From: a virus
Direction: 5' to 3' (one strand)
DNA: 64,000 nt
IMG/VR virus record: IMGVR_UViG_3300020442_000016
Span: 34,769-98,768 of that record
Both the position numbers and the translations under genes were made by a program. Positions 14,918 through 22,408 of the stretch are shown piece after piece; the first letter of the stretch is position 1; each line of letters begins with the position of its first letter. A model generated the notes under the pieces. That model did no database searches, was not told where the DNA came from, and saw only the letters and a list, made by a program, of their open reading frames with translations.

Positions 14918-15184
14918 ATGGCAAACTTCTCTGAATTCCTTGATTATTGCGAATCATTCTATAACCCTAAGCACCCTGATGCATTATATCCAATAGAAGG
15001 ATTAACTAGGGGAGAATTAGCACTTGCTACACTTGAATACCTAGATTCATGTAACGATGAAATTACATGGGGTGGAGGTGATAGTCTAGACAGAGAAAGA
15101 GTAAGGGATACGGTATTAGAAATTAGGGAATTAAATGACCTAGTAAATGATGCTACCGAAGCATTAATGAATGAAGTCAGGTAA
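14918..15184 (+). CDS. Small acidic hypothetical protein (88 aa)
   Basis: This is an acidic, predicted all-helical 88-aa protein with a short Gly-rich turn (ITWGGGDS). No family is recognised. It is a single-gene unit between a -10 box and the AT-rich non-coding region that may act in replication. Confidence 0.7.
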   Translation: MANFSEFLDYCESFYNPKHPDALYPIEGLTRGELALATLEYLDSCNDEITWGGGDSLDRERVRDTVLEIRELNDLVNDATEALMNEVR

Positions 15185-15197
15185 CACATCACCATAC

Positions 15198-15233
15198 AGT
15201 TTTCCACAGATTTTTGATATTTTGTGGAAAACT
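15198..15233. repeat. 11-bp perfect inverted repeat containing two DnaA-box sequences
   Basis: AGTTTTCCACA (15198-15208) and TGTGGAAAACT (15223-15233) flank a 14-base T-rich spacer. Each arm contains TTTTCCACA, the DnaA-box consensus described for cyanobacteria, in opposite orientation. A third copy lies at 15562-15570. It could be a DnaA-binding site, part of an origin, or a transcription hairpin. Confidence 0.75.
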
Positions 15234-15371
15234 AAAAATGGTTAAAAAAATATACTAGAGAGAAATATATCTCTAGTTAAATGTCTCTAGGTGTAGTCAT
15301 CTAAGAGCGTAACGCAACGAGATTTTTTTGTCAAGTATGCACAGGACACTTCACAAACCCACACAGATCCC

Positions 15372-15400
15372 TTGACATTACTATCATTTTCCTACATAAT
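15372..15400 (+). promoter_or_regulatory. Sigma70-type promoter
   Basis: A perfect TTGACA (15372-15377), 17 bases and CATAAT (15395-15400) lie 41 bases before the ATG at 15442. Confidence 0.75.
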
Positions 15401-15441
15401 GTAATCGTCCCAAACAAATCACTTTCCTTTGCTAATCGATC

Positions 15442-15627
15442 ATGGGTAGGACATACAAACGAAACGACCCCTATAGAAGCAACAGACCCAAATCTCTAAA
15501 AGAAAAAAGAAACCAATCACAATCCAATCGTCGCGGGTATGCTGATGACAACTCCGCAGACTTTTCCACAGGTAAACACAAACGACGCAACCCTGATGAC
15601 TACACTACGCGAGACGATTGGCAATGA
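15442..15627 (+). CDS. Small very basic protein (61 aa)
   Basis: This is an Arg/Lys/Asn/Ser-rich 61-aa protein, probably disordered, with repeated RN and KR dipeptides; it is likely to bind nucleic acid or ribosomes. No family name is known to me. It is first in a promoter-led ATGA-coupled operon running to 16128. The third DnaA-box copy (15562-15570) lies inside the gene. Confidence 0.75.
   Translation: MGRTYKRNDPYRSNRPKSLKEKRNQSQSNRRGYADDNSADFSTGKHKRRNPDDYTTRDDWQ
15562..15570 (+). other. DnaA-box-like 9-mer (TTTTCCACA)
   Basis: A third perfect copy of the cyanobacterial DnaA-box consensus, inside the basic-protein gene and about 330 bases from the inverted pair. Confidence 0.5.
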
Positions 15628-16399: not shown

Positions 16400-16868
16400 G
16401 GATAAGCAGTATGAAGCACTGCGTGAAGAATACAAAGACTTACTAGACATCCCATGGGAAGGCAAAAGACTCTATGGGTGTTATGAGATCATTCGTAAGT
16501 ATTGGGAGAAAGTGCACGACGAAAAACTGATTGATTTCAATAGTCGTGGAGTCATTCGCTTTCAGGAAGATGCTATTGCAGAGCAAGGAGCAGCTTGGAA
16601 GTTTCATAAGGAGTGGGGGGAAGAGTTAGACTTCTCACTCCTAGAGAAGGAGGATGTCCTATTATTCCGATTGTTTACCACACCCCTCGGCGGCAACTAC
16701 TCCGTGCCTAGGGGAGAAGCACCGAATCATGGTGGTATATACCTCGGAGATGGGTGGATGCTTCATCATCCCTACGATGATGTTTCTCAGATTGCAGATC
16801 TCACTGATAAGTATAACAAGATATATTGCAGCAGTTGTATGGGTGCAATTTATAAAAAGGATAGATAA
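16386..16868 (+). CDS. NlpC/P60-like cysteine peptidase
   Basis: The 160-aa protein has the NlpC/P60 layout. C32 in a LYGCYEIIRKYW helix start is the likely nucleophile, H115 is in an NHGGIYLGDG strand, and a second His pair is at 127-128 (LHHP). The DVLLFRL strand before the His segment fits too. Family enzymes cleave peptidoglycan cross-links or stem peptides; in tailed phages they are tail-associated (lambda K-like). Here it lies ahead of virion genes, so a tail-tip or lysis role is likely. AGGAGG at 16376-16381 is a strong ribosome site, with tandem ATGs at 16383 and 16386. The gene partly overlaps the 55-aa gene. Confidence 0.75.
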   Translation: MPKSRDKQYEALREEYKDLLDIPWEGKRLYGCYEIIRKYWEKVHDEKLIDFNSRGVIRFQEDAIAEQGAAWKFHKEWGEELDFSLLEKEDVLLFRLFTTPLGGNYSVPRGEAPNHGGIYLGDGWMLHHPYDDVSQIADLTDKYNKIYCSSCMGAIYKKDR

Positions 16869-16891
16869 TGCTTAGAGTGGAGAATAACTCT

Positions 16892-17068
16892 ATGAGCAAA
16901 AGATTCATAGTCCCTGTACAAGTAGATGATGAGGGGGAATACTTCTTCAATCTTCCCGATGAGATCATGGAGGACCTTGACTGGAGGGAAGGTGATGAGT
17001 TACACTATGAAGAGGATATCAATGGTGATTTGATCCTTCGTAAGGTAGACCCTGAAAAAAATCCGTAA
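16892..17068 (+). CDS. AbrB/SpoVT-like swapped-hairpin protein (58 aa)
   Basis: The sequence has a beta-hairpin body: FIVPVQVDDEGEYFFNLP, then EIMEDLDWREGDELHYEE, then LILRKV. This is the pattern of AbrB/MazE/SpoVT swapped-hairpin DNA-binding proteins (the W.eGD.l segment is typical). It could be a transcription regulator of the phage or a structural adaptor. Two starts are possible: the ATG at 16868 (TAATG overlap with the upstream gene) and the ATG at 16892, which has GGAG upstream and matches the domain start. No toxin partner is visible next to it. Confidence 0.65.
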   Translation: MSKRFIVPVQVDDEGEYFFNLPDEIMEDLDWREGDELHYEEDINGDLILRKVDPEKNP

Positions 17069-21994: not shown

Positions 21995-22408
21995 ATGGCA
22001 TCGTACAGATTTAGATCTGAAAAATATGTTTCTAGGGGGTTTAAGGATTTCGCCATATCTTTCATGGCAAATCCTAACACCAACGACTTTGGTGTGGTTA
22101 AAAATGAAAATGCCATTAAGCAAGCGGTCAAAAATCTTATTTTGACCTCTTTTTTGGAAAGACCCTTCCAACCTGACACTGGATCTAGAATTAAAGATTT
22201 AATGTTTGAGCCTTATGACCCATTTGTGGGTGAGGCAATGAGAAATGAGCTTAGAAACGTATTAGAACGTCTCGAACCTCGTGTTGAAGTGACCAGAGTG
22301 TATATCAGAGAAGAAATTGACATTAATTCTCTACACTTTGAGCTGGATTATAAGATTGTCGGTGAAAACGTCGTTAAAACCGTAGACTTTCTTTTAGAGA
22401 AGACTTAA
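21995..22408 (+). CDS. gp25: Baseplate wedge protein gp25
   Basis: This 137-aa protein is a typical T4 gp25 homologue: a short N-terminal extension, NTNDFGVVKNENAIKQAVKNLILT, then FLERPFQPDTGSRIKDLMFEP and a beta-rich C-terminal part. In T4, gp25 is the core of the baseplate wedge and, through its conserved glutamate-containing core motif, links the hub to the sheath; it is the TssE homologue of T6SS. Start and length fit the family. It is followed 1 base later by gp6, giving the expected gp25-gp6 arrangement. Confidence 0.95.
   Translation: MASYRFRSEKYVSRGFKDFAISFMANPNTNDFGVVKNENAIKQAVKNLILTSFLERPFQPDTGSRIKDLMFEPYDPFVGEAMRNELRNVLERLEPRVEVTRVYIREEIDINSLHFELDYKIVGENVVKTVDFLLEKT

Follow-up and report, generated by a model that had tools for sequence, protein, structure and literature searches.

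Escherichia coli datA is a localised cluster of DnaA boxes outside oriC and is a titration-type site, and bacteriophage lambda, which is temperate, encodes its own initiator, O. To our knowledge, the known origins of phage T4 do not use DnaA. For the cyanophage Syn9, the original prediction of a theta origin is reportedly that of Weigele in 2007. The available text of PMC2984593, a review, mentions a predicted single theta origin for this phage, and lambda is described, in the accessible portion of PMC3985674, as making use of the host's DnaA at, or close to, its own origin and promoters. The T4 origin oriF (ori uvsY) adjoins gene 25, and a phage transcript serves as its primer (T4 record). 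In cyanobacteria, the 9-mer TTTTCCACA is a published DnaA box, and domain IV of Cyanothece DnaA binds multiple boxes (both from the excerpted text of PMC4674748).

Here we analyze a cluster of TTTTCCACA boxes in T4-like cyanophages, starting from a 64,000-nucleotide stretch of the IMG/VR virus record IMGVR_UViG_3300020442_000016 (the window). The phage array is like the cyanobacterial oriC next to dnaN in its TTTTCCACA boxes, which are helically phased, and in matching direct and divergent (18–19) spacings. It is unlike that oriC in that neither dnaN nor dnaA lies beside it, its neighbors being small phage genes and the baseplate block, and in that the phages favor a convergent pair with a start-to-start distance of 23–25. 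It shares with datA the property of being a localised DnaA-box cluster outside oriC, and it differs from lambda in that an array of consensus boxes is carried here by T4-like phages. The T4 genome, in contrast, has no DnaA-box cluster and two scattered copies of TTTTCCACA; in Syn9, the array lies at 52.5 kb. The features of the window that are relevant to this comparison are the following (coordinates, strand, description).

14918–15184, plus strand: open reading frame (ORF) upstream of the array, 88 amino acids, phrog_7799, function unknown
15200–15208, plus strand: perfect DnaA box TTTTCCACA that forms the left arm (15198–15208) of the convergent pair
15223–15231, minus strand: perfect DnaA box that forms the right arm (15223–15233) of the same pair
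15236–15256, plus strand: A/T-rich element AAATGGTTAAAAAAATATACT, which abuts the array, candidate unwinding element
15254–15277, minus strand: inverted repeat ACTAGAGA..TCTCTAGT with a T run after it, resembling a terminator only for transcripts of the minus strand
15372–15400, plus strand: sigma-70-like promoter TTGACA-17-CATAAT, probably an early promoter that serves the small genes after it
15442–15627, plus strand: ORF downstream of the array, 61 amino acids, weak match to phrog_1464, function unknown
15562–15570, plus strand: third perfect DnaA box, within the small ORF 15442–15627, at the same offset in the near relative G001 (position 130769)
21995–22408, plus strand: gp25 baseplate wedge gene, 6.8 kb downstream of the pair and used as the syntenic landmark

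An earlier, sequence-only reading of this DNA had reported three perfect copies of TTTTCCACA, two of them forming an 11-bp inverted repeat. All three copies lie at the positions and on the strands that it gave, and the repeat is perfect, with arms AGTTTTCCACA and TGTGGAAAACT separated by a gap of 14 bases. Its estimate that such a 9-mer is expected about once or less per window agrees with our computed value of 0.98, and three copies were reached in 9 of 100 shuffles of the window; the copy number of TTTTCCACA in the window alone is not significant. The clustering of the copies is the signal, and it is beyond chance, because the whole record has no further copy, because G001 (186,016 bases) has the same three and no more, at identical spacing, and because two of the copies form an exact convergent repeat. 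The whole-record count proposed in that reading places all three copies of the 98,768-base record within 371 bp. The left-arm box of the convergent pair is conserved in three relatives (L015, L108, and L114). The boxes had also been placed in and beside the largest AT-rich non-coding gap. Of all 100-bp stretches in the 64-kb window, the one with the lowest GC begins at 15183, in this gap; the third box lies outside the gap, within an ORF. Searches of the window with Rfam and for tRNAs returned zero matches in each case. The window also encodes, at 16868–17068, an AbrB/MazE-like small DNA-binding protein (PF04014, phrog_661), and a homologue of it lies downstream of the pair in 17 of the 17 pair-bearing sequences in which one was found.

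The pattern AGTTTTCCACA N5-30 TGTGGAAAACT matches at least 119 IMG/VR loci, and 115 of the 119 loci listed belong, with named T4-like cyanomyoviruses, to a single component of a protein-sharing network, a type of network that can chain. Among the convergent-pair loci listed, gaps of 14–16 are the commonest, with a lesser peak at 26–27, and the loop sequences and flanks vary. Several of the IMG/VR loci are near-duplicates, and only identical cores or genes were removed from the counts of spacing, phasing, gp25, promoters, and A/T-rich flanks that are given below. In the 40 whole records behind a subset of the loci, TTTTCCACA is found, among the matches listed, mostly in one cluster of ∼1.5 kb, and copies of a reversed-pattern control are few. 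The four of the 119 that fall outside the cyanomyovirus network (L012, L014, L062, and L107) are viral contigs that carry the convergent perfect pair. Contigs of bacterial genomes have the same convergent pair in 118 stretches or more (L126–L243), many of them from Clostridia and Sphingobacterium.

When 17 named cyanomyovirus genomes were analyzed, none of them picked by the pair and four included for their DNA similarity to the window, a cluster (at least two exact copies within 60 bp) was present in eight: S-WAM1, P-TIM68, Syn9, S-PM2, Syn19, S-SM2, S-SSM5, and Syn1. No exact cluster was found in the other nine (MbCM1, P-TIM40, P-SSM2, P-SSM4, P-RSM4, S-SSM7, P-HM1, S-TIM5, and S-RSM4), and the regions of these genomes that were examined contain no one-mismatch cluster either. 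A cluster was found in 0 of 3 T4-like controls (HTVC008M, T4, and KVP40). When sorted by isolation host as given in the records, this small sample has clusters in 7 of the 10 phages assigned to Synechococcus and in 1 of the 6 assigned to Prochlorococcus, with S-RSM4, for which no host is given, counted in the Synechococcus group and MbCM1 left without a host; we treat this host-genus skew as a lead only. The presence of the array does not simply track GC. Conservation in related cyanophages, on which the earlier proposal had been made to depend, is found in general, although it is patchy (8 of 17 named genomes and 22 of 61 gp25 loci).

The gp25 loci come from a sample that is independent of the boxes, obtained by gp25 searches that returned 281 loci with 222 distinct genes. 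Two boxes within 60 bp are present upstream of gp25 in 22 of the 61 loci that have at least 5 kb of upstream sequence, compared with two upstream clusters for the best of 1,259 scrambled 9-mers of the same composition; downstream of gp25, a cluster is present in 0 of the 118 loci with at least 5 kb of downstream sequence. Of 128 pair-bearing sequences, gp25 could be located in 73 and gp6 in 72; without exception, each lies downstream of the pair, on the same strand and 1.6–10.0 kb away. On the other side, an SF2-type helicase and a 2OG-Fe(II) oxygenase are upstream of the pair wherever they were found (15 of 15 and 18 of 18 sequences, respectively). Annotated maps of Syn9, S-RIM50, Syn19, P-TIM68, and Syn1 show the same placement of the array, which stays while nearby small genes switch sides (members of the gp90 family, for example, lie upstream in 35 cases and downstream in 26). 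The orientation of the array toward gp25 is not fixed, direct pairs being '++' in 11 cases and '--' in 12. From these results, we conclude that the DnaA-box cluster recurs at one syntenic place in T4-like cyanophages.

Synteny with T4 oriF was considered and dropped. The T4 origin lies on the opposite side of gene 25 from the cyanophage array, and the orientation of gene 25 relative to oriF is opposite. Nor can the helicase of the cyanophages be clearly identified as UvsW, the best match between the two covering only 59 residues. In S-PM2 (L263, 14000–26000), several tRNAs are annotated in this neighborhood, including one within the 2OG oxygenase gene and two that overlap the box array; ARAGORN finds none, and the annotation looks displaced.

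The boxes in the phage arrays are separated by start-to-start distances of 11–12, 21–22, 32, 42–43, and 52 for direct pairs and of 13–14, 23–25, 34–36, 44–46, and 55–56 for convergent pairs. These spacings have a period of ∼10.5 bp (R of 0.75, 0.68, and 0.56 for convergent, direct, and divergent pairs, respectively) that was matched by 0 of 2,000 shuffles in each orientation class, and the phasing is weaker when unique distances are used (1, 32, and 199 of 2,000 shuffles). The direct and divergent spacings are free of retrieval bias, because the retrieval fixed only convergent gaps of 5–30, and the gp25 sample has the same main peaks. In the cyanobacterial oriC beside dnaN, direct spacings of 9, 11, 12, 21, 32, 42, and 53 and divergent spacings of 18–19 and 29–31 were found. 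Judged by motif identity, helical phasing, and the direct spacings that they share with host oriC, the boxes appear to behave as the cyanobacterial DnaA boxes that the sequence-only reading had taken them for. A search for the DnaA DNA-binding domain (PF08299) found none in 22 cyanophage records, and a phage-encoded DnaA was rejected on this basis. Given the published box, the oriC-like spacings, and the absence of PF08299 from these records, host DnaA is the expected reader of the array.

Host origins differ from the phage array in the quality and arrangement of their boxes. A convergent pair within 90 bp is absent from 61 host dnaN loci, several of which are on contigs that start at dnaN with oriC out of view. 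In small cyanobacterial genomes (presumed from their size and GC to be Prochlorococcus and marine Synechococcus), the boxes near dnaN mostly have one mismatch, for example ATTTCCACA and TTTTCAACA, and the convergent perfect pair is present in 0 of 20 such genomes. Capture of a host oriC was rejected from these data, and the phage array is not a copy of host oriC, nor does it share the degeneracy of the host boxes. That the host arrays are without the convergent hallmark of the phage would also be expected if another host or phage protein, sharing TTTTCCACA by coincidence, were the reader of the sites; however, the direct and divergent spacings match those of host oriC arrays, which makes this explanation very unlikely on the sequence data.

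The same comparison with host genomes bears on titration of host DnaA, in which perfect, phased phage boxes would draw DnaA from the weaker boxes of oriC, halting host replication and freeing nucleotides. It is consistent with the perfect state of the phage boxes, set against the mostly one-mismatch boxes beside dnaN in the presumed hosts, and with the absence of the convergent perfect pair from all 20 of those genomes. Yet the arrays have 2–6 boxes, mostly 2 or 3, and would therefore offer few targets before the phage replicates, and titration in its pure form requires neither one syntenic place nor an adjoining A/T-rich element. An array confined to a single site, upstream of the baseplate genes, is more easily explained by a local function than by plain titration, and we consider titration unlikely.

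The convergent pair could instead act as RNA, either as an intrinsic terminator or as an RNA-processing element, and the 11-bp inverted repeat does fold well as RNA on both strands (z of −5.1 and −4.5). However, no T run follows the repeat on the coding strand, which answers the concern that the box hairpin might prove to be an intrinsic terminator, and T-rich tails follow it in just 30 of 147 cases on one strand and 34 of 147 on the other. In addition, Syn1, S-WAM1, and S-SM2 have direct boxes and no perfect hairpin, and one-sided mismatches in Syn19, S-SSM5, and S-SM2 are uncompensated. The loops vary and the boxes do not, and the box spacing is helical, so we interpret the locus as a DNA–protein site; an RNA hairpin was rejected as extremely improbable.

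An A/T-rich element adjoins the boxes in part of the family. When the window was aligned with the orthologous gap of S-WAM1, the boxes were found to be rearranged, with three direct copies in S-WAM1, and TAAATGGTTAAAnnAATATACT was kept despite this rearrangement; the conserved element is also seen in S-RIM32 and others. The A/T-rich motif points outward at 26 of 364 array flanks, compared with 5 pointing inward and 4.5 in shuffles, counts that are somewhat optimistic because the pattern was chosen after examples had been seen. Among ten genomes selected for having clusters, the motif is present as a single genome-wide copy, beside the cluster, in three (G001, S-WAM1, and S-PM2), in four copies in P-TIM68, and is absent from six; 247 kb of host dnaN/oriC sequence contains one match. 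Low GC at the cluster is exceptional in only 3 of these 10 genomes, in which random stretches are equally AT-rich at frequencies of 0.002–0.035, with values of up to 0.60 in the others. In the orthologous gap of the Prochlorococcus phage P-TIM40 (L275, 10100–10340), the A/T-rich element is kept, as is the promoter region in part, and there are no recognizable DnaA boxes.

The promoter TTGACA-17-CATAAT is the sole exact match to its pattern in the window, and the TTGAC..TACATAAT block, with its −35 and −10 elements, is conserved in S-WAM1. Across 80 loci (16 orientation-less loci and loci with the pair <300 bases from an end were omitted), there are 31 sigma-70-like sites on the plus strand and 29 on the minus strand at no more than 300 bp from the pair, compared with 4.8 and 6.3 expected, and their density is about four times that of the surrounding upstream region. 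The minus-strand sites occur in these IMG/VR loci even though the listed genes are almost all on the plus strand, and they could give rise to antisense or origin-priming transcripts. The sigma-70-like promoter at the cyanophage array can likewise be compared with a transcript-primed, oriF-type origin, its role in priming being putative. The inverted repeat at 15254–15277, between the array and the promoter, would, if real, halt minus-strand transcripts before the boxes; shuffles of this region gave a mean of 1.7 such terminator-like sites, and the hairpin and T run may be due to chance.

The enrichment of promoter-like sites around the pair, the promoter conserved between the window and S-WAM1, and the position of the array upstream of the baseplate block are each consistent with control of transcription, in which host DnaA would be an activator, a repressor, or a roadblock for the promoters located where the early small genes give way to the late baseplate block. 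Lambda, with DnaA sites and promoters at its origin, provides a precedent (accessible portion of PMC3985674). The variable orientation of the array toward gp25 and the wide variation in the distance between array and promoter argue against a role of this kind, which we regard as rather improbable.

A GC-skew turning point at the cluster, which the sequence-only reading had proposed as a check, did not materialize, and this counts against that reading. There is no cumulative minimum there in the ten whole genomes, and the dip in the window is local, so GC skew was rejected as evidence for an origin. In T4-like phages, whose genes as annotated here are nearly all on one strand, this criterion is not diagnostic.

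Based on the presence of one cluster per genome, its fixed neighborhood, the phasing of its boxes, the abutting A/T-rich element, and the nearby promoters, we favor an origin over the readings considered above. Several host-consensus boxes in a short stretch, as in an origin, are present both in the window (three within 371 bp) and in clusters across the family, and these boxes are helically phased. The array is phased, selected, and confined to a single locus, it occupies a syntenic place, and it has an adjoining element in part of the family. To judge from its sequence, the cluster is most likely a host-DnaA binding array that is part of a replication origin, and we give about even chances to the more specific proposal that the locus is a host-initiator-assisted phage replication origin. 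In this proposal, host DnaA would oligomerize on the phased boxes early in infection, the bound DnaA would help to open the A/T-rich element or the promoter region, and the opened DNA would let the phage's own T4-type replication proteins load. We infer both that host DnaA binds the array and that the outcome would be initiation of replication, as opposed to promoter regulation or DnaA capture. An origin is also disfavored by the six of ten genomes that have no A/T-rich motif, by the low GC that stands out in only some genomes, and by the variable orientation of the array toward gp25. The lack of a skew turning point, the patchiness of the array, and the P-TIM40 neighbors without boxes suggest that, across the family, DnaA has at most an accessory role.

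The occurrence of perfect boxes in cyanophages suggests that these phages use or capture the host initiator during infection. A bolder and tentative possibility is that this T4-like branch depends on host DnaA, with one element that starts phage replication and switches off that of the host; the phased consensus boxes and the A/T-rich element would then outcompete the degenerate boxes of host oriC.

In the portions of the PMC open-access literature that were available (including PMC6359870, PMC2297514, and PMC9860041), no such boxes are described in cyanophages. A single origin in Syn9 has been proposed before (available text of PMC2984593), and the position of that origin may already be in print. 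How replication starts in T4-like cyanophages, which are among the most abundant viruses of the ocean, is not settled in the literature searched, and a syntenic, phased array of consensus host-initiator boxes provides one precise place to look in cultured phage–host pairs, such as those of Syn9, Syn1, S-PM2, and S-RIM50. The array would also bear on the observation, in a small sample, that Synechococcus isolates carry arrays more often than Prochlorococcus isolates, and on how cyanophages stop the replication of their hosts.
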